46,788 nucleotides of DNA from Elusimicrobia bacterium GWB2_63_16 (lineage in GTDB: Bacteria > Elusimicrobiota > Elusimicrobia > Elusimicrobiales > UBA9959): positions 10,610-57,397 of the forward strand of contig MGTZ01000023.1 of the NCBI GenBank assembly GCA_001799715.1, given 5' to 3'. The notes under the pieces were generated by a model, which did not search any database, was not told the origin of the DNA, and saw only the letters and a list, made by a program, of their open reading frames with translations. A program made the translations under genes and the position numbers. Shown here piece by piece: positions 23,337 to 31,067 of the stretch. How positions within the stretch are numbered: the stretch's first letter is position 1; each line of letters opens with the position of its first letter.

Positions 23337-23483
23337 GTCGTCCTTGGCCGCTTGTTGAGCATAGCTCCTGAAGCGGCACTGGCAAAGCCTTGTAATTTGG
23401 GGGATTGGCCCCAGAGTATCCACGATCCGGCCTTAACCGGATGTATCCAGGGAAAGCAAAGTAATATTTGCTTTCCCTTTTTT
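23337..23483 (+). ncRNA. Candidate structured RNA or leader of unknown class
   Basis: The stretch between the 22777 gene and the 66-aa peptide gene holds several strong stems. GCCGCTT (23347-23353) pairs with AAGCGGC (23371-23377) and encloses GAGC-ATA-GCTC. ATCCGG pairs with CCGGAT over CCTTAA (23425-23442). A perfect 11-bp terminator ends it. No known riboswitch class is recognised; GGCAAAGCC at 23381-23389 recalls one piece of the GEMM motif, but the rest does not fit. The peptide gene has its own promoter downstream, so this is more likely a separate small RNA of about 147 nt than a cis-acting switch. Confidence 0.45.
23450..23483 (+). terminator. Strong intrinsic terminator before the peptide operon
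   Basis: GGGAAAGCAAA pairs perfectly with TTTGCTTTCCC over a GTAATA loop, followed by six T. Confidence 0.93.
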
Positions 23484-23493
23484 ATTCGGCAAA

Positions 23494-23522
23494 TTGCTCA
23501 AAACTCGCAAAAGTGGTAAAAT
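23494..23522 (+). promoter_or_regulatory. Promoter of the peptide-radical SAM operon
   Basis: TTGCTC, a 17-bp spacer and TAAAAT. Transcription would start near 23529, with AGGGGA as ribosome-binding site five bases before the ATG at 23543. Confidence 0.55.
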
Positions 23523-23542: not shown

Positions 23543-23743
23543 ATGAAAAACAAAGATAAAGTTCTCGCGGCCTTTTTAGTTTCAATGGGGATGTTTTCGG
23601 CGTTGCAGGCAACCAAATATATAGCCTCCCTGTCCGACGCCGATAAGAATGCTTTGGTTCCGGCGGCCGCCGCTTCAAATGACGGGACCGTTACGCTTCT
23701 CTGTTCTACTGACTGGCCGGATACTAACCCTAAGAAAGCCTAA
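23543..23743 (+). CDS. 66-aa peptide, candidate substrate of the adjacent radical SAM enzyme
   Basis: A short gene with a good ribosome-binding site (AGGGGA), 17 bases before a radical SAM gene. The peptide has a lysine-rich start and a hydrophobic segment (VLAAFLVSMGMFSALQA), a middle SLSDADKNALVPAAAASNDG, and a C-terminal tail with Cys54 and Trp58 in TLLCSTDWPDTNPKKA. The layout of small peptide then radical SAM enzyme is that of ribosomally made, post-translationally modified peptides (RiPPs), with the tail as possible core. No known precursor family is recognised. The hydrophobic segment could instead be a signal or membrane anchor. Whether it is modified is not shown by sequence. Confidence 0.6.
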   Translation: MKNKDKVLAAFLVSMGMFSALQATKYIASLSDADKNALVPAAAASNDGTVTLLCSTDWPDTNPKKA

Positions 23744-23760
23744 GCAGACGCAAAGCAAAA

Positions 23761-24627
23761 ATGGTTACACGCCTATCCGGGTTTGTAGTTGTCCCCGGAT
23801 ATGCGTGTAATTTCTTTTGTGAGCATTGTGTCGCTGGAGGGCGCAGAGAGCGAGGGGGCCTTTCGCAAAAAGAAATGCGGCTGGTCACGGATGCGATCGC
23901 CCGCTATAAGGTGCGGTCGATATTTTTTACCGGGGGCGAACCCTCGCTGTATATCCGGAAAATCAACCGGATATTAGGGGGGGTAGACCAGGCTAGGCGG
24001 CTAAACGTGACCGTTACTACCAATGGGTGGTTCGCGACCACACCGAAGAGAACGGTCGATAAACTGATGTCGTTTTCAAAGCTTGATAGTGTACAGCTTT
24101 CCTACGATAAGTTCCATAAAAAGTTCCTGCCGGAAGGGAACGTGCTTAATTTGTTTGAAGCGTGTAAAAAACTTAAGAAACGTTTCAGCGTAGTTATGAG
24201 CGTACAGTCTCCTTTGGACCTTCAATTGGTCGGGCCGCTGAAAAAAATCGGTAAATTCACGATAGGGATTCAACATGTGCTGCCTTTGGGTGCGGCGAAG
24301 ACCAATGGCTTGGGTTACAAACGCCAGAGTTTCGATAAGCAAGTGCTTTTTGAGCGCTGTCCGGTAAGAGGAAAGATCGCGTATATGCCAGGGTATGGTT
24401 TTAGTGCCTGTTGCATAGCTCCGGAAATCGCCGGCCGCGGGAAGCCATATTTTTATCCCACCCCTGAGAAATTGCTTGAAAGCCGGTTTTACAACCTGGT
24501 TTCAAGACATACATTCAAGGAGATAGGAAAAAAATTGAACATATCCGAAGCGGATATTTCCGGAGAGAATTCGTCTCCATGCATGGTCTGCGCTGAAATG
24601 TTCGCAAAAGCGGGGAGATTGAAATGA
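23761..24627 (+). CDS. Radical SAM protein with C-terminal cysteine cluster
   Basis: Predicted S-adenosylmethionine radical enzyme, 288 aa. The [4Fe-4S] motif CxxxCxxC is C16, C20, C23 in ACNFFCEHC, and the SAM-binding TGGEPSLY follows at about residue 57. Further cysteines C200, C217, C218, C274 and C277 in the C-terminal third (FSACCIAP and SSPCMVCAEM) could hold an auxiliary cluster as in SPASM/Twitch peptide-modifying enzymes. No peptide-recognition (PqqD-like) domain is visible in it. It follows the 66-aa peptide and overlaps the next gene by four bases. Its DNA is clearly more AT-rich than the flanking genes, consistent with acquisition from elsewhere. Confidence 0.88.
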   Translation: MVTRLSGFVVVPGYACNFFCEHCVAGGRRERGGLSQKEMRLVTDAIARYKVRSIFFTGGEPSLYIRKINRILGGVDQARRLNVTVTTNGWFATTPKRTVDKLMSFSKLDSVQLSYDKFHKKFLPEGNVLNLFEACKKLKKRFSVVMSVQSPLDLQLVGPLKKIGKFTIGIQHVLPLGAAKTNGLGYKRQSFDKQVLFERCPVRGKIAYMPGYGFSACCIAPEIAGRGKPYFYPTPEKLLESRFYNLVSRHTFKEIGKKLNISEADISGENSSPCMVCAEMFAKAGRLK

Positions 24628-25322
24628 AAGTTTTAGACTCTGACAAGGATAAAATCATTTTGGAAGTGGCAGATATCTCCGAAATTACAGAAGCCGAAAA
24701 AAATTCTTTTAACTGGCCAGCGTCGGTGCCTAAGCTTGTGGTAAAGCTTGGTGGGGGAGAAAGAGATGAGGAAAAAATCATTGGCGCGAGGGTGTTTGAA
24801 AACTGCAAGATCAGAATAATTTATGGCGCCCCGAAGGATGGGATAGGGCTGTCGGGCGGCGTTAATGATTTTCCCGAATTGACCGTTTCAAAGATAGCCG
24901 ATAAGACAGAGCTCGTGGAGTTCTATCTCAAAACCCAGAAGAAGCATTTCAATGATGTATGGGCGGCAGAGACTTCGGGGGCGCCTCAACTCTCGCCTGC
25001 CGTCCTGGCAGAAAAACTTTCGGTGGAGAACGCGATATGTCTGGAGATAAAAGGGGTTAGGGTGGGTTTTGTCGCCCTGGTGGATTGGGTGAACTGGTTT
25101 GGAGTTCCTTCCAGTTTGGTCTCGTGGATATGGATAGACGGAGAACTCCGGCCGGAAGTCAGGAAAGCGGTCCATCAGAAGATAATTCGGTGGTTAAGGG
25201 AGAGGACCGCGGAGAAGCTCTCCTGCGTTGTTGATGTCTTTAATGTTCGTTCGCGTAGATTTTTTAAAAAAATAGGATTTATTCCTGAATGTCTGATCGT
25301 GAGCAGAAAACAACTTCATTAA
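24624..25322 (+). CDS. GNAT-like acetyltransferase fold protein
   Basis: A 232-aa protein whose C-terminal half resembles the GNAT N-acetyltransferase fold: a strand-helix pattern ending VDVFNVRSRRFFKKIGFIPECLIV, close to the usual N-x-x-S/A-x-x-x-Y-x-K-x-GF end of that fold. The first half (residues 1-100) is not recognised and could be a substrate-binding domain. The ATG overlaps the stop of the radical SAM gene (ATGA), and GGGGAG lies upstream, so translation is coupled. A role in acylating the product of the preceding peptide or a small molecule is plausible but unproven. The acetyl-CoA loop is not clear by eye. Confidence 0.6.
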   Translation: MKVLDSDKDKIILEVADISEITEAEKNSFNWPASVPKLVVKLGGGERDEEKIIGARVFENCKIRIIYGAPKDGIGLSGGVNDFPELTVSKIADKTELVEFYLKTQKKHFNDVWAAETSGAPQLSPAVLAEKLSVENAICLEIKGVRVGFVALVDWVNWFGVPSSLVSWIWIDGELRPEVRKAVHQKIIRWLRERTAEKLSCVVDVFNVRSRRFFKKIGFIPECLIVSRKQLH

Positions 25323-26701
25323 TAGCGGGTATTCTCAGCCTGTTCCTTTGCGGGTGCGGTTCCCCGGGGGCCGAGTCCGGCAGGTGGGAAGTCCTGCTTA
25401 TGGGCCTGCCGGAAGAAGTTGCCACGGCAAGAGCCTGGGAAACGGTAACTTACTACATATTAAAACAAACGCACGAACCTCTCTTTAGAACTGACGAAGG
25501 AGAGAATTTCCACTCCAGGATACTAAAAAAGTGGGAAAAAGATATTCTGTCAGGCCAGTATCTCTTTTGTCCTGACACGGATAAGGAATTCGATAAGGAT
25601 CACGCTTTCGGCCCGGAGTTCTTTTCGGAGTATATAACCAAGACGACCTCGAAATATGCGCGGAATTTTTCCGTAGAGCGCAGGGGCGGTTGTTTCTCCG
25701 TGTCCTTCCCTTCCCCTCAGAAAGGTTATATCGAGTTCTTATCCAGATATGAGAACGCCCCCTCAATTCGCCAAACCGACAAGGTGGAAATGGGCCTTGG
25801 AGAGTTCTTTGTCGGCAGCATGGGGGGCGGCAAGATAGTTCTGCGCAGGAAAAAGCCGGTGCCCAATGGGTACTCTGAAATTGTCCTGAACGAATATTCT
25901 CCTGCGAAAGCCAAAACTTACGACTACGGGAGAATATCCGATTTTAACAAGATCCCGGTTTTCGATGTCCCGCGGGAAATACTGAGTGGATTTGCGACGT
26001 ACAATAATATCGAGTTAAGGTCTGACGTCCTGATAATAAATCATCCTGATGCGGAAGTGCGGAAGCGGATATACAATTGTCTCGATGCCGACAGGTTCCG
26101 TCGCGCGTTTTTCCCGCAAAAAAACGATTTTTACAATATCAGCAATGTGCTTCCCGTAGGGGTTTCCGGGGCGGTGCCGGGGCTGCCTCTACAAGACTGT
26201 TCCGCGCTGCCAAAATTCGGCGGTCGGTCGCGCGATCTCGTACTCTTTAACCATCGGAGCGGCAATATTGAACAGCTTGCGGCCGTTGCGGAGGAGTTCT
26301 GGTCGCGCACGGGGTTGAAGATAAACGTAGTAAGTCGGACGCCTAAAGAATTAAGTCCTTTCCTTCACAAATACCCGCGGCCTTACAATATGGTCGTAAT
26401 AAGTCTTGATACCGTAACGCCGGCGTATGAAAGCTTTTTTGGATTTATCGTTCGCCCTGACGGTTATTTCAACCAGCAGGATCCTGTGTTAAAGAAGATC
26501 TTTGACGAGATTTCCAGGGATACCGATCCCGGTAAAAGAGCCTTGCTTGTCGATAAGTTTTTGGGGGAATTGCATAAGCGCTATCTTATCCTGCCGCTTT
26601 ATCAGAACGTTAAAGAGTTATATTATCCCAGACGTATCAAAAATTTCATAGTGGGCCGGGAATTTATGACCTATCCGGAAGTGGCGGATTTCAGATGGTA
26701 A
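25289..26701 (+). CDS. Lipoprotein, oligopeptide-binding (SBP_bac_5-like)
   Basis: A 470-aa exported lipoprotein with lipobox SLFLCGCG near residue 20. The start of the mature part (VTYYILKQTHEPLFRTDEGENFHSRILKKW, read in two parts) and the C-terminal PDGYFNQQDPVLKKIFDEI with ILPLYQNVKELYYPRRIKNF follow the layout of periplasmic oligopeptide/dipeptide-binding proteins of ABC importers. No permease or ATPase genes are adjacent, so it may deliver a ligand to the kinase encoded next rather than to a transporter. The gene overlaps its upstream neighbour by 34 bases and the kinase gene by 7, so the whole series is translationally coupled. Confidence 0.75.
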   Translation: MSDREQKTTSLIAGILSLFLCGCGSPGAESGRWEVLLMGLPEEVATARAWETVTYYILKQTHEPLFRTDEGENFHSRILKKWEKDILSGQYLFCPDTDKEFDKDHAFGPEFFSEYITKTTSKYARNFSVERRGGCFSVSFPSPQKGYIEFLSRYENAPSIRQTDKVEMGLGEFFVGSMGGGKIVLRRKKPVPNGYSEIVLNEYSPAKAKTYDYGRISDFNKIPVFDVPREILSGFATYNNIELRSDVLIINHPDAEVRKRIYNCLDADRFRRAFFPQKNDFYNISNVLPVGVSGAVPGLPLQDCSALPKFGGRSRDLVLFNHRSGNIEQLAAVAEEFWSRTGLKINVVSRTPKELSPFLHKYPRPYNMVVISLDTVTPAYESFFGFIVRPDGYFNQQDPVLKKIFDEISRDTDPGKRALLVDKFLGELHKRYLILPLYQNVKELYYPRRIKNFIVGREFMTYPEVADFRW

Positions 26702-28371
26702 AACTTTTTACGCGCATCCTTGTTTACAACTGGCGGCATTACTCGGCGGCGGTGCTGGTGTTCGTCGCTTTCTGGCAGGGCTACTCGGTGTTCTCGACGC
26801 TGCGGGTGGCGGACGACAAGCTGCTGACGGCCATGCGGCAGAATGCGGCCTATTTCGAAAAGGCGTTCCTGGCGGGGGACGTCTTCGAAACGCAGCGCAT
26901 CATGTGGCGCGTCAAGAACGACAATATCAAGCGCATAACCTTCCACCCGGTTGTGTTCGAGGGCAGCCGCTGGATATTCAAAGAGGCGGTAGTAGGCAAC
27001 CTTTACGACAGGCCGCGGGCGCAGCTCAACCGGAGCGTCCCCTTCGTTTCAAACGGCGCGGAACTGGGGCGCCTGGAGTATGTAATAGACCTCGTAGACG
27101 TGAATGCGGCGGTGTTCGCGGAGAACTATGCCCTGTTCGTCACCGTGGTGCTCTTCTTCCTGGGGCTGCTGATCCTCTCGAATATGGGCGCCCTACAGAC
27201 GCTACTGGCCATAGAGCGCTCGGTGAACGAGATAAATTCTATAACCGATTCCGGCCAGGGCGACATTATCCGCGATTCGATCAAGAAGAACATAGCAAGC
27301 CTACCCGCCGGCATCATAGGCACGCCCTTCGCGCAGATGACAACGCGCATGAGCGAAGCCCTGGGCCAGGCCGCCCGGCTGGAGAGCGAACTGGCCGTCA
27401 GCAAGGCCGTCTCCGACATGGCCGCGCAGGTGGCGCACGATATACGCTCACCGCTGGCGGCGCTCGGGGCCGCCGCGAAGGGCCTGGACCTCCCCGACGA
27501 GAAGCGCACCCTTATAGACGGCTCCATCGCCCGCATGCAGGGCATAGCCGACGACCTGCTGCGGCGCTACCGCGCCCCCGCCGCCGCTAAGGCGAAGCCT
27601 GAAACCTGCGCCCTCGCGGGCCTCATAGAGCAGGTGCTGGCCGAGAAGCGCATTCAGCATAAGGACAGGGCCGGCATAAAGATAGAGTTCCGCTCCGACG
27701 CTGATGGAGTTAAGGCCGCGGTTGACCCGAAAGAGCTGCAGCGCATAATTTCCAACTTGGTCAACAACTCGGTCGAGGCTTTCGCCGGCTCCGGCACCGT
27801 GGCGGTGCGCCTCGCGGCCACGGACGGAAAGGTTTTGATAGAAGTGAAGGACGATGGCAAAGGCATACCGGCGGAGATACTCGCCAGGCTGGGCGCTAAG
27901 GGCGAGACGCACGGCAAGGCCGGCGGCACCGGCCTGGGCCTCTACCATGCCAGGACTTCCGCGGAAAGCTGGGGCGGCGGTCTTAAGATCGAGTCCGCGC
28001 CCGGCAAGGGCACTACGGTCGTTATGGAGCTGCCGGCAGCGGCCAAGCCGGCCGCCGGCCTGCGCGCCGTGCTGTTAGACGACGATTTGCTGGTGCACAT
28101 GAACTGGCGCATGGCCGCCAAAGCCGCCGGCGCCGACCTGAAGGCCTTTAAGACCCCAGAAGAATTCGCCGCCGCCGCGGGCGCGCTGCCGCGCGATATC
28201 CCGGTCTATATAGATTCCGAACTTGGCGACGGCGTCAAAGGCGAAGATATCGCCGTGGACTTGCACGAGCGCGGCTTCACCGACCTCACCATGGCCACCG
28301 GCCACGGCGCCGAAAAATTCGCGGCCCTGCCCTGGCTGAAAGTCACCGGCAAAGAGCCCCCCTGGCAATGA
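26695..28371 (+). CDS. Membrane histidine kinase with C-terminal receiver domain
   Basis: A 558-aa sensor kinase. Order: membrane span (about 14-34), extracytoplasmic segment of about 100 residues, second span (YALFVTVVLFFLGLLILS), linker, dimerisation domain with H248 in QVAHDIRSPLAAL, ATPase domain (N-box SNLVNNSVEAF, DDGKGIP, GTGLGLYHA), then a receiver-type domain from about 458 with LLDDD, YIDSELG, ATGH and VTGKEPPW. No output domain is attached. The ATG lies inside the end of the binding-lipoprotein gene. Its C-terminal half closely resembles the kinase at 38.3 kb. Its base composition is GC-rich like the core genes, unlike the AT-richer genes just upstream. Confidence 0.87.
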   Translation: MVKLFTRILVYNWRHYSAAVLVFVAFWQGYSVFSTLRVADDKLLTAMRQNAAYFEKAFLAGDVFETQRIMWRVKNDNIKRITFHPVVFEGSRWIFKEAVVGNLYDRPRAQLNRSVPFVSNGAELGRLEYVIDLVDVNAAVFAENYALFVTVVLFFLGLLILSNMGALQTLLAIERSVNEINSITDSGQGDIIRDSIKKNIASLPAGIIGTPFAQMTTRMSEALGQAARLESELAVSKAVSDMAAQVAHDIRSPLAALGAAAKGLDLPDEKRTLIDGSIARMQGIADDLLRRYRAPAAAKAKPETCALAGLIEQVLAEKRIQHKDRAGIKIEFRSDADGVKAAVDPKELQRIISNLVNNSVEAFAGSGTVAVRLAATDGKVLIEVKDDGKGIPAEILARLGAKGETHGKAGGTGLGLYHARTSAESWGGGLKIESAPGKGTTVVMELPAAAKPAAGLRAVLLDDDLLVHMNWRMAAKAAGADLKAFKTPEEFAAAAGALPRDIPVYIDSELGDGVKGEDIAVDLHERGFTDLTMATGHGAEKFAALPWLKVTGKEPPWQ

Positions 28372-28492: not shown

Positions 28493-28664
28493 CCAGGAGC
28501 CTGTCCGATACAAGCAATTTTGTATGTAATTAACGCTTTTGACCTGCGCTTTTGCGTGCTCAATTCGCAACCTCCGTAGAGAAAGTGCTTGTTGCTCGCT
28601 TCTTCGGTTCGCCGACAAAAGCGAGAGTTTAGCTGTGAAAGCCTTGTGTCGGACAGGCTCCTGG
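28493..28664. mobile_element. 172-bp element with 23-bp terminal inverted repeats (MITE-like)
   Basis: CCAGGAGCCTGTCCGATAC at the left end is matched in reverse at the right end (GTGTCGGACAGGCTCCTGG); the 23-bp arms agree at 21 positions. The interior has no gene and contains further self-complementary pieces (CGCTTTTG and CAAAAGCG). Size and ends fit a miniature inverted-repeat transposable element. No clear target duplication is visible. It separates the palindromic sites at 28.42-28.45 kb from their promoter; with it removed the spacing returns to about 74 bp, close to the two other copies. Confidence 0.6.
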
Positions 28665-28692: not shown

Positions 28693-28708
28693 CGGCATAA
28701 GAAATGCT
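28693..28708 (+). promoter_or_regulatory. Sigma-54-type -24/-12 promoter (copy C)
   Basis: CGGCATAAGAAATGCT keeps the GG-N10-GC spacing and is followed by TCTG as in copies A and B. It lies before a broken gene for a secreted Cys-rich protein. Confidence 0.55.
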
Positions 28709-28718
28709 CTGTTTTGGG

Positions 28719-29335
28719 TGGTTGTCATACAATGATTCCACCGGCGGGAGCGTCTCCAAGGATAGCGTCCTATCCCTGCTGTCTGAAGAGGGGACGCCTG
28801 CGGTTGCGCCTTCCGTGGTAATATCTGTACCAGCCCGGCACGAGCTTCCCAATGTAAAAACACTCACAGAAGAAATTCCCGCTGAAAATCGTATTTTATT
28901 CCTTAACAGTCTTGTTTTAAGGAATGGACGCATAGTTTTTGCGGATGCTTCAGTGTTAAGATCTGTCCGTTTTCGAAAAGCGGAAGTCATAAAAGAACTG
29001 TTTACGGGTGCGGATACTGGTAGCACGGATGGAGTTGGAGCCGCTCAACCTTTTAAAATATCAGAGTTCTGCAGGATCTCCCGGCCAATGTGCAGAATGA
29101 TTTCCTGGAAAATATGACGTTTAAAAACGGAGAATTCGTGGCCGCAAAGATAGGAGGCCTGATGGAAGTGGTTGGCTCAGAGCGGATAAAAGGGATTATC
29201 GGCGCTCTCGCGGCCAAAACAGAAAGTTCAAAAACATTATGCGGGAACGGGGTCTGCTATGATGCCGGCTGTTTTTCGCATGGGTGTGAAGAATCCACGA
29301 CCCACTCCGTGTGTACCAGCTCGTGTAATAATTGA
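28719..29335 (+). pseudogene. Broken copy of the Cys-rich secreted protein
   Basis: Translation in one frame gives LTEEIPAENRILFLNSLVL and NGRIVFAD; after a frameshift near 29060 a second frame gives LQDLPANVQNDFLEN, NGEFVAAKIGGL and a Cys-rich end (CGNGVCYDAGCF, CTSSC). These match, in order, the two repeats and the tail of the intact gene at 30303. No start codon with a signal peptide follows the promoter at 28693, so the 5' end is missing too. It is therefore a decayed paralogue, although the second frame from 29090 could still make an 81-aa fragment. Confidence 0.65.
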
Positions 29336-29386
29336 ATCGACTTTGGCGGCCTGGAATATTCAGAAGGTCTTGTGCGGGGAGGAAAA

Positions 29387-30301
29387 ATGAGGAAAATGGT
29401 CATTGTATGCGGTTTGGCGGGTGTGGCGGCGTTCGGGGGCGGATGCGCCTCGCCGGCCGGCCGCAACGCCGACATCTCGCAAGCGCTGGTAAAAGAGGCC
29501 CGGCCCGACCTGGACGTAGTGGCCGCCGCCGCCGCCAGATTCAGGGAAGGAGATTTCTCCGACGCCGCTTTAAAAACACACTCCGACGGCGAGCTGGACC
29601 AGCTCTACGAGGCGCTATACAGGGTGAATTTCTACTACCCGGGCCGGAAAAACAGTATCGTGCTGCAGCGCGGCGTGCTTGAGGAGAGGCTGCGGCGCAA
29701 GCGGCAGACGAACGAAGACGGAGAGCGTATGCACAAAGTCTACATCGGCGCCAGGATGTTCAAAGACGCCGCGGCTATCGGGAAACTCTTCCCTGGGGCC
29801 GAATTCCCCGCCGTCCCTGAGTTGATTGTTTCCGGCGGCGGCGGCGAAAATAAGTGGCGCGTTTATGATATCTCCGATGGCGGCAAAAGGGCGGAACTGC
29901 GGTCTTTGCCGTTAGCCGCCGGGCGAAGGATAATAATGGAGATATTCACCGGCTGCCCCACGGCAGAGAAGGCCCTGGGGGACATCCTGGCTGACCCCGC
30001 CCTGTCCGACGCCTTTAGGAAATACGGCCTTCTGGTGACGGATCGGTTCGACGCCGTAGGGGTGCTTCTTTGGCGGGAACACTTCAAATTTCCCGAGGTA
30101 TACATCGCGCATCGGCGGGACGAATTCCCGGGGGTTAACTTCCGTACTTCGCCTAATTTCTATTTCCTGGATGCCGGGGAGATAAAACATTCCTTCTTCG
30201 GCTGGGCCGACAAAAGCCGGCCCGACTCCGGCGCGGCCAACCTGCTCAAAGGGCTGCGGGCTATCTCCGTCCCGGTGGAGGAGGCCGGTCATGGAGGCTG
30301 A
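29387..30301 (+). CDS. Lipoprotein with thioredoxin-like C-terminal domain
   Basis: A 304-aa exported lipoprotein: N-terminal MRKMVIVCGLAGVAAFGGGCAS has a lipobox ending in Cys22. The C-terminal part from about residue 185 reads like a thioredoxin fold: IIMEIFTGCPTAEKAL with a single cysteine in place of CxxC, then TSPNFYFLDAGEIKHSFFGW, which corresponds to the cis-Pro strand and the following hairpin. A CxxA active site would not form an intramolecular disulfide, so the domain may bind or exchange thiols rather than oxidise. GGGGAGGA lies before the ATG. It overlaps translation signals with the next gene, a Cys-rich exported protein, which may be its partner. Confidence 0.6.
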   Translation: MRKMVIVCGLAGVAAFGGGCASPAGRNADISQALVKEARPDLDVVAAAAARFREGDFSDAALKTHSDGELDQLYEALYRVNFYYPGRKNSIVLQRGVLEERLRRKRQTNEDGERMHKVYIGARMFKDAAAIGKLFPGAEFPAVPELIVSGGGGENKWRVYDISDGGKRAELRSLPLAAGRRIIMEIFTGCPTAEKALGDILADPALSDAFRKYGLLVTDRFDAVGVLLWREHFKFPEVYIAHRRDEFPGVNFRTSPNFYFLDAGEIKHSFFGWADKSRPDSGAANLLKGLRAISVPVEEAGHGG

Positions 30302-30302
30302 T

Positions 30303-31067
30303 ATGCCCATGGTGCGGCGGGCCGGTCTTTTGCCGGCGCTGATCTGCGTAGCGTTCTGCTCCGCTCAGGGCCCGCTCCACGCCGGTCCCGCGGACCGGGC
30401 CGCCGGCACTGGGGAGCCTGCCCGAGAGATCGCCGCGGCCGAGATTAATTCCAGGCTTGAAGGGGCCGCGCATACTGACGGACAAGCAGGCCGGGAAAGG
30501 AGTAAAAAAACACGGTTGCTCGTGATGAAGGAGTTCCTTCGAGAACTCCCGCCGGACGAGAGGGCGAAGGTGCTGGGCAGTTTTGTGCTGGTCAATGGCG
30601 CCGTCGCTTCTTTTTATGTCGGCCCGCTTCGGGCGCGGCTGCGTCCGGAAGCCGTTGCCGGGAAGGTACGGGCTTTGAGCGGGTCATTCCGGGAGAATCT
30701 GCCGGAACGGTCCCGTGAGGCCCGGCGCCATGCGGAACTGTCCGCGCTCCTTGGGGATGTTCCGGAAAAGACCAGGAACGAATTCCTGGACAGCCTGGTG
30801 TTAGAGGACGGCGTTCTGGTCTCCGCTAAAGTCGGCGGCCTGCGCCGCAAAATGGACGACGCCAGGCTGAAGAATATTCTGGATCGGCTCGCGTACGACA
30901 GTCATGAAGTGCCGGGGATAAAAAGCTTTGGCGCCGTCTGCGGGAACGGCTGGTGCACGCACTCAGCTTGCGTCATGCTGCGCGGCACGGTTAAGGAAGA
31001 CGACCGTCCCGCCGCAGCGCCGGCGGACAAGGATACCGTCTGTTACAGCGCCTGCGGGAAGTTTTAG
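30303..31067 (+). CDS. Secreted protein with two LP-x-FL repeats and a Cys-rich tail
   Basis: Not a recognised family. The 254-aa product has a signal peptide (RRAGLLPALICVAFCSAQG), two copies of a repeat of about 40 residues (75-115, FLRELPPDERAKVLGSFVL, and 147-187, LLGDVPEKTRNEFLDSLVL), and a tail with C213, C218, C223, C247 and C251 (CGNGWCTHSAC and CYSAC). A broken paralogue lies at 28719-29335, with the tail cysteines retained. Start chosen at 30303 because GGAGG lies five bases before it; ATG 30291 is possible. It follows the thioredoxin-like lipoprotein gene with one base between stop and start. The end product may be a disulfide-bonded exported protein. Confidence 0.7.
   Translation: MPMVRRAGLLPALICVAFCSAQGPLHAGPADRAAGTGEPAREIAAAEINSRLEGAAHTDGQAGRERSKKTRLLVMKEFLRELPPDERAKVLGSFVLVNGAVASFYVGPLRARLRPEAVAGKVRALSGSFRENLPERSREARRHAELSALLGDVPEKTRNEFLDSLVLEDGVLVSAKVGGLRRKMDDARLKNILDRLAYDSHEVPGIKSFGAVCGNGWCTHSACVMLRGTVKEDDRPAAAPADKDTVCYSACGKF

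Follow-up and report, generated by a model that had tools for sequence, protein, structure and literature searches.

What does a bacterial operon do that encodes, in succession, a small peptide, a radical SAM enzyme, a GNAT-like protein, an oligopeptide-binding-type protein and a sensor histidine kinase? Such a gene series lies at positions 23543-28371 of a 46,788-nucleotide stretch (the window) from Elusimicrobia bacterium GWB2_63_16, the genome of which comprises 2.87 Mb in 62 contigs and is 91% complete. An original prediction, made from the DNA letters alone, suggested that the series makes a modified peptide and senses it, or a related peptide, at the membrane. Production of a modified peptide that would then be sensed is still the best-supported reading, because the gene order is conserved, the enzyme is related to a peptide epimerase, the binding protein is predicted to have an OppA/NikA fold, and peptide, enzyme and binding protein vary together. 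We propose, with a probability of roughly 0.6, that the operon is a signalling system licensed by 2'-deoxyguanosine (2'-dG), in which an epimerised peptide is received by a variable binding protein that feeds a conserved kinase. The riboswitch, terminator and promoter-like element upstream of the genes and the sister cassettes described below were not part of the original prediction and are new here.

Gene order, precursor peptide and radical SAM enzyme

All five genes lie on the forward strand. They encode a precursor peptide (23543-23743, 66 aa), a YydG/EpeE-like radical SAM peptide maturase and putative epimerase (23761-24627, 288 aa), a GNAT-like protein, the accessory gene of a slot that varies between loci (24624-25322, 232 aa), a membrane-tethered binding protein of predicted OppA/NikA fold, presumed to be the peptide receptor (25289-26701, 470 aa), and a sensor histidine kinase with a small extracytoplasmic domain and a putative receiver-like C-terminal domain (26695-28371, 558 aa). 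A 17-base gap separates the peptide gene from the radical SAM gene, and the following genes overlap by 4, 34 and 7 bases, as originally described. A profile of the radical SAM protein recovered 31 genes in 25 of the 340 genomes of the phylum (6 of 100 genera), and a profile of the binding protein 33 genes in 28 of the 340. All places with a radical SAM match were fetched, yielding 30 loci; duplicates L103 and L104 were dropped, and the two loci found by a single-protein scan, G281:C30 (from a relative in the window's genus) and G271:C7, were counted once.

The gene order, whose comparison among relatives had been proposed as a check, is conserved. At 28 of the 30 loci the radical SAM gene has a peptide homologue directly upstream, so the precursor gene is not missing beside homologues of the enzyme, an outcome that the original prediction would have regarded as fatal. 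One of the two loci without it, L114, begins inside the radical SAM gene, and the most distant locus, L027, has a 68-aa open reading frame (ORF) of similar shape that is unmatched by the peptide hidden Markov model. The binding-protein gene follows downstream at 28 of the 30 loci as well; L020 stops at a contig end within the radical SAM gene, and L112 has 1.1 kb without a binding-protein match before the contig end. Where binding protein and kinase are both present (30 loci), their genes overlap by 7 bases at 24 loci and by 4 bases at 3, and are about 1 kb apart at 3. At L082 (G253:C271) riboswitch, peptide, binding protein and kinase succeed one another with no radical SAM gene between peptide and binding protein, and the contig ends inside the kinase gene. 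Two variants of the cassette were also observed: L113 (G266:C81) has a pair of family radical SAM genes flanking the riboswitch and a peptide gene, and L116 (G275:C62) appears decayed, with a riboswitch remnant and an altered and shortened radical SAM gene beside full-length binding-protein and kinase ORFs.

The peptide has the organization of a precursor of a ribosomally synthesized and post-translationally modified peptide (RiPP). Its signal-like leader spans residues 1-23, conservation extends to about residue 36, and residues 37-66 form a variable core; in the alignment, for which peptide starts were trimmed by a rule of our own, the mean majority fraction is 0.65 for residues 1-36 and 0.33 for residues 37-66. 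This arrangement, a short precursor whose leader is conserved and whose core varies, stands beside a maturase gene at 28 of the 30 loci. The N-terminus, with a charged start followed by a hydrophobic stretch, Ala at residue 23 in 26 of 29 peptides and a mostly small or aliphatic residue 21, looks like a Sec signal. Differences at codon positions 1, 2 and 3 amount to 0.36, 0.26 and 0.64 in the leader and 0.64, 0.60 and 0.72 in the core; the leader thus differs mostly at third positions and is constrained at the protein level, and this constraint is much weaker in the core. The Cys/Trp tail emphasized by the original prediction exists in the window peptide but is not conserved, being part of the variable region: Cys occurs in 18 of 27 cores and Trp in three of 29 (the window, L020 and L068). 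Core Cys is not significantly associated with a GNAT-like gene (11/13 against 7/14; Fisher p 0.10), in a count that omits L020 and L112, where the accessory slot extends to the contig end.

The window enzyme matches PF04055 above the cut-off, and its top NCBIfam model over the full length is TIGR04078, the YydG peptide epimerase (7.6e-18). All 19 aligned enzymes, that of the window included, match this model, and they match some MoaA and viperin models more weakly. The score of 65 bits falls below the family cut-off of 300, and for this reason the enzyme is termed a YydG-like relative and putative epimerase rather than filed as a member. Against PDB, the best match of the profile is YydG/EpeE (8ai1; E 6e-25; profile positions 6-285 of 289), followed by a second family with a partial match only (E 5e-08). 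The nearest family thus acts on a peptide, and the non-peptide substrate that could have undermined the prediction was not encountered. The CxxxCxxC cysteines C16, C20 and C23 are present in 29 of the 30 enzymes, the remaining one (L114) being cut there. For EpeE, Cys223 is the proposed H donor (PMC8326336). Window residue C217 aligns with chain Cys 248 of 8ai1, which would be EpeE Cys223 if the tag comprises 25 residues; C217 is kept in 29 of the 30 enzymes and is replaced by Ser in the decayed L116.

The third gene occupies a slot of changing content. Pfam GNAT matches of the window protein are sub-threshold (best 9.7e-4, 19.8 against 20.7 bits), and its homologues occur at 13 of the 30 radical SAM loci. 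In or near the slot, other loci carry PF00144-family hydrolases (L025, L026, L085 and, on the other strand, L027), a transglutaminase-like protein (L018), or a second radical SAM protein with an MFS protein (L026); a TldD/TldE pair lies upstream at L021, as identified by Pfam, and similar ORFs lie upstream at L022. RiPP loci typically show such exchanges among their tailoring and processing genes.

Binding protein, kinase and patterns of co-variation

A Pfam scan of the window binding protein alone gave no match, PF00496 included; at E<=1, PF00496 matches five of the 19 members of the alignment (best 1.2e-05). Its AlphaFold model (pLDDT 86) matches OppA best in PDB (2z23; E 5.1e-23; TMq 0.70). 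All 50 PDB matches listed are substrate-binding proteins (E 5e-23 to 7e-21; TMq 0.53-0.72), among them OppA, NikA and DppA as well as AapF in a structure that contains a signalling molecule, and on this modelled structure the protein is assigned the OppA/NikA fold. The N-terminus carries a lipobox-like LCGC. PF00496 is matched twice in the host genome, once inside its sister cassette. That the binding protein has no importer of its own, as the prediction held, agrees with a whole-genome search for the OppB-type permease domain PF19300, which gave no match in the host and was positive as a control in 11 of 14 genomes.

The kinase matches HATPase_c (2.2e-25; 89.7 against 26.4 bits) and HisKA (1e-06; 29.1 against 26.9 bits). 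Its low-confidence model (pLDDT 68) has a layout of helix, sensor, helix, DHp, CA and alternating beta/alpha elements; the alternating part, and Asp, Thr and Lys residues that the aligned kinases keep, would be compatible with a receiver-like C-terminal domain. Among 13 aligned relatives, identity to the window kinase is 69-84% for 12 and 35% for the remaining one.

Pairwise protein distances were compared by Mantel tests at the 24 of 34 loci where all four proteins were present and not too short (two kinases measured only 163 and 177 aa), and in three further sets with full kinases (n=19), after pruning (n=16), and hand-picked within the genus, one locus per genome (n=11); for L113 the better of its two radical SAM genes was used. 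Enzyme and binding protein are strongly correlated (r 0.74, 0.79, 0.78 and 0.82 for n=24, 19, 16 and 11), as are peptide and enzyme (0.60 for n=24, range 0.57-0.68) and peptide and binding protein (0.54 for n=24, range 0.48-0.65), all with p<=0.002. Correlation with the kinase is nearly absent for the enzyme (r 0.05, 0.07, 0.05 and 0.06 in the same order) and for the binding protein (0.03 for n=24), the values for both ranging overall from -0.10 to 0.12 without significance. In the genus set, the only one compared with recA (not obtained for G268, which lacks a full match, G283 and G285), the kinase follows recA (r 0.69; p<0.0005), and peptide, enzyme and binding protein do not (r 0.06-0.15, not significant). 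Between the window and L113, the kinases are 91.2% identical, the peptides 45.5%, the radical SAM enzymes 41.8% and the binding proteins 35.9%. Peptide, maturase and presumed receptor therefore act like a single exchangeable unit, whereas the kinase that follows them looks vertically inherited within the genus. Pheromone polymorphism explains this co-variation best, and the exchange of a toxin together with its immunity is the rival explanation.

The 2'-deoxyguanosine-II riboswitch and its regulon

A 2'-deoxyguanosine-II (2'-dG-II; RF03165) riboswitch aptamer was identified by cmscan at 23385-23455 on the forward strand, 87 bases before the peptide ATG (81.8 bits against a gathering threshold of 60; E 3.7e-21). 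It is the best of its clan there and was recovered by a whole-genome search too. In the numbering of PMC8872408, with positions mapped in this analysis, the window aptamer has the bases at positions G21, U22 and C51 (the last at 23421); U22, C51 and the G-C pair at the junction end of helix P1, which are specific to the class, are present in all 41 aptamers considered (40 sampled ones and the window). An intrinsic terminator hairpin, followed by T's, lies at 23450-23477 on the same strand, and its 5' arm shares bases with the 3' strand of P1. Unconstrained folding of the leader gives the terminator and no P1 (-42.6 kcal/mol), against -31.0 kcal/mol when the aptamer is enforced. Since the terminator uses the 3' strand of P1 and the two folds are mutually exclusive by calculation, the leader is predicted to be an ON switch, in which the ligand prevents the terminator. 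A terminator scan of the window listed one terminator against a shuffle mean of 1.7 and is therefore by itself no evidence. Related leaders show the same aptamer-terminator layout, and in the 40 sampled leaders a simple arm search found a hairpin overlapping P1 in 29, with a T-rich tail in 27; several of the other 11 appear translational by eye.

Between terminator and ATG, the window carries a promoter-like element (23494-23522, forward strand), TTGCTC-N17-TAAAAT with a TG ahead of its -10, which is supported by the aligned leaders of related cassettes. A TGnTAAAAT-like element is found in this interval in 11 of the 18 leaders of cassettes with a binding protein and kinase, and in none of the 22 other riboswitch leaders (shuffle expectations 0.36 and 0.06), a contrast that is descriptive, since the pattern was written after the leaders had been seen and the other leaders have shorter spacers. 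A strict sigma-70 consensus scan listed two minus-strand sites and not this element, which is retained for its conservation among leaders and for that reason alone. Scanning the window for sigma-54 promoters gave eight sites against 7.0 expected by chance, that is, nothing.

At the radical SAM loci, the riboswitch precedes the peptide in 21 of 30 cases, and it does so at L082 too. Six loci have none (L018, L019, L023, L027, L110 and L111; at L018 and L019 only 157 and 195 upstream bases are available), L116 retains a remnant of 24.7 bits, and L106 and L114 are truncated at contig ends. In the phylum, the riboswitch was found in 97 of 340 genomes at E<=0.001, 88 of them with a match above the cut-off. 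Forty riboswitch loci were hand-picked with preference for high scorers, not at random (three from the host genome and 37 others), and at 18 of these the riboswitch precedes a same-strand kinase of the window family or its truncated start; this count leaves out L075, where a weaker match lies 2.5 kb downstream on the same strand, and L063, where the match is on the opposite strand.

Seven of these loci (L061, L071, L073, L076, L078, L084 and L091) are sister cassettes with a PF00496 binding protein above the cut-off and a kinase of the window's family. YcaO proteins are encoded at L061 and L091 (above the cut-off) and at L073 and L084 (below it), radical SAM/SPASM proteins at L071 and L078, and no maturase was seen at L076; L077 has a YcaO protein above the cut-off and a binding protein outside the seven tested. 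The sister cassette of the host genome (L061; G000:C10:12500-21000) encodes a 59-aa peptide that begins with a signal-like stretch, a YcaO protein, a binding protein and a kinase with an N gap, and is flanked by two homologues of an NtrC-like (sigma-54-type) response regulator, one match having internal stop codons. A small ORF at L061 appears Hpt-like, and a similar one at L077 has no Pfam match; the peptide cores of L061 and L025 have VPVDN in common.

Other sampled riboswitches precede metallo-hydrolases, namely that of L063 in the host genome, which is ComEC-like by TIGR00361 below the cut-off, and those of L067, L097 and L100, assigned by PF00753; at L095 a PLD-like protein follows. ComEC-like and PLD-like genes agree with functions listed for the 2'-dG-II class in PMC8872408, and for this reason 2'-dG is read here as a probable cue of DNA breakdown; the riboswitch-controlled ComEC-like and PLD-like enzymes may act on DNA. 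Pfam gave no family for six further riboswitch genes (L080, L088, L093, L094, L096 and L098). At L065 (932-2347) the riboswitch is followed by a secreted-looking protein of 200-250 aa without a Pfam match and then by a CPBP/Rce1-like membrane protease, and a secreted-looking protein of this size was noted by eye at L069, L074, L075, L083, L086 and L090.

The signalling model, its rivals and known systems

In the mechanism that we propose, 2'-deoxyguanosine from DNA breakdown would block the terminator through the 2'-dG-II riboswitch and raise transcription, on top of expression from a second, promoter-like element directly 5' of the peptide gene. The YydG/EpeE-like enzyme would modify the precursor in the cytoplasm, most likely by converting L to D residues in the variable core, and the GNAT-like protein may introduce a second modification. 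The signal-like leader would carry the peptide over the inner membrane, where the tethered OppA-fold protein would bind the mature peptide and present it to the kinase at its conserved sensor domain; the kinase may then pass phosphate via its receiver-like domain to NtrC-like regulators. Support comes from the riboswitch, the exclusivity of terminator and P1, the leader/core precursor, the EpeE match with its kept Cys, the interchangeable tailoring genes, the OppA fold without an OppB-type permease, the Mantel pattern, the L082 unit, the sister binding protein-kinase cassettes and the NtrC-like regulators flanking L061. More tentatively, and with rather less confidence than in the operon itself, these Elusimicrobiota cassettes may form a class of polymorphic pheromone system not described before, licensed by a nucleoside that DNA releases: a 2'-dG riboswitch would turn on secreted RiPP signals made by interchangeable maturases (YydG-like epimerase, other radical SAM proteins or YcaO), and each signal would have a matched OppA-fold receptor that acts through a common kinase family.

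Several observations weigh against the signalling model. No regulator gene was found in the window's own operon by ORF list and Pfam scan. The TIGR04078 score of the enzyme lies far under the family cut-off, the lipobox-like pattern occurs in just 12 of 32 binding proteins, the window among them, and the kinase model is of low confidence with PF00072 unmatched. Six of 30 loci without a riboswitch and one with a remnant imply that the riboswitch is not essential, and owing to the second promoter-like element some expression may bypass it. Peptide and kinase are weakly correlated in the two larger Mantel sets (r 0.22-0.24; p 0.004-0.005), a signal that is gone in the pruned and genus sets, and the enzyme gives r 0.21 (p 0.09) with the sensor part of the kinase in the genus set. 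Finally, co-variation would also result if a toxin were paired with an immunity protein or sensor of its own.

This last point leads to the foremost rival, which we consider unlikely on balance though a serious contender: the product would be an antimicrobial epipeptide toxin directed at close competitors, and the binding protein would protect the producer by sequestering it or reporting it to the kinase, in the manner of LiaRS with the B. subtilis epipeptide. The joint variation of peptide, enzyme and binding protein suits a toxin with its immunity, and PF00144-family and GNAT genes could protect the producer. However, the interval between peptide and kinase in the window fits the radical SAM, GNAT-like and binding-protein genes alone, and the conserved core is thus without an exporter or a separate immunity protein, L026 with its MFS gene aside. 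A conserved sensor behind a variable binding protein also suits recognition better than damage sensing, and the binding protein-kinase pair persists in sister cassettes with other maturases.

Distinctly improbable is a peptide metallophore or nutrient sensor, in which the peptide would carry metal and the kinase would report the metal-loaded form. The top sequence matches of the binding-protein profile are indeed nickel-type proteins (the 5yh5 group and NikA), the protein resembles NikA/CntA, and many cores contain Cys; however, the host genome has no OppB-type importer by PF19300, nine of 27 cores lack Cys, and an oligopeptide-binding protein ranks first in the structure search. Least probable of all is that the binding protein and kinase sense environmental oligopeptides and merely share an operon with an unrelated RiPP: five of the 33 binding-protein matches have no adjacent radical SAM gene of the family, but two of these lie at contig ends (G267:C24 and G317:C45) and that in G253 keeps the peptide, leaving G276:C41 and G030:C6, while the distances of the binding protein are strongly tracked by those of peptide and enzyme, gene order is maintained at loci of six genera, and the peptide gene is still present in the radical SAM-less L082 unit.

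No sign of a viral or plasmid-borne operon was obtained: a phage search with the radical SAM protein gave no match, a plasmid search with it gave a single distant partial radical SAM match, and among viral contigs searched with the binding-protein profile there were 37 pattern stretches and no relatives. Directly 3' of the kinase gene, an inverted repeat (28493-28664; 22-nt arms, 95% complementary, 128 nt between them) resembles a small non-autonomous mobile element. It is followed at 28704-31067 by a series of ORFs for which the Pfam scan gave no family above the cut-off; two of them, of 81 aa (29090-29335) and 258 aa (30291-31067), have Cys-rich ends with a common CGNGxC.

As a means of communication between bacteria, the gene set appears to be of a new kind. 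No description of it was found among the papers listed by full-text searches on 2'-dG riboswitches (also with Elusimicrobia or ComEC), epipeptides, Elusimicrobia radical SAM peptides, and riboswitches with RiPPs, quorum sensing and radical SAM proteins, in a collection that covers few subscription papers. If the pheromone-class reading is true, cells would announce their kin type while the DNA of lysed neighbours is consumed. The 2'-dG-II riboswitch class would gain a concrete regulon linking DNA breakdown and RiPP signalling, and YydG-like peptide modification would be extended to Elusimicrobiota and to signalling. The cassettes would also offer a modular receptor system, with one kinase family, many peptide-receptor pairs and a specificity directly testable in E. 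coli.

Among known systems, the epipeptide locus yydFGHIJ/epeXEPAB of Bacillota likewise places a radical SAM gene after that of a small precursor, and the window enzyme shares with YydG/EpeE the full-length profile match, the CxxxCxxC motif, the proposed H-donor Cys and a C-terminal Cys pair. Unlike epeXEPAB, the window operon has no protease or transporter gene and includes a binding protein, a kinase and a riboswitch; its precursor has no detected similarity and its enzyme lies far under the family cut-off. Genes for epeP, epeA or epeB were found neither in the window operon nor, by Pfam, among the four neighbouring proteins, a search that did not extend to relatives. In agr, a polymorphic peptide quorum-sensing system, the peptide, the maturation enzyme and the receptor part vary together, and conservation is seen in the output part of the kinase. 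The operon described here is similar in that peptide, maturase and putative receptor co-vary ahead of a conserved kinase, but here the role of variable receptor would fall to a binding protein encoded separately and not to the sensor domain of the kinase, and a radical SAM or YcaO maturase and a riboswitch input are added. In LuxP-LuxQ, a binding-fold protein presents the signal to a hybrid kinase; the pairing is alike, whereas the predicted fold here is OppA/NikA and the peptide is encoded and made in the same operon. In streptococci, a cytoplasmic Rgg regulator and an SHP peptide reportedly control the production of radical SAM RiPPs, which also ties a radical SAM-modified peptide to peptide signalling, through a cytoplasmic regulator there and probably by membrane sensing here. 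A regulatory parallel is the 2'-dG-II regulon of PMC8872408, which has the same aptamer class and, like the regulon described here, ComEC-like and PLD-like genes; that source assigns the class to Bacteroidetes and its list does not include RiPP cassettes, whereas here the riboswitch is matched in 97 of 340 Elusimicrobiota genomes.

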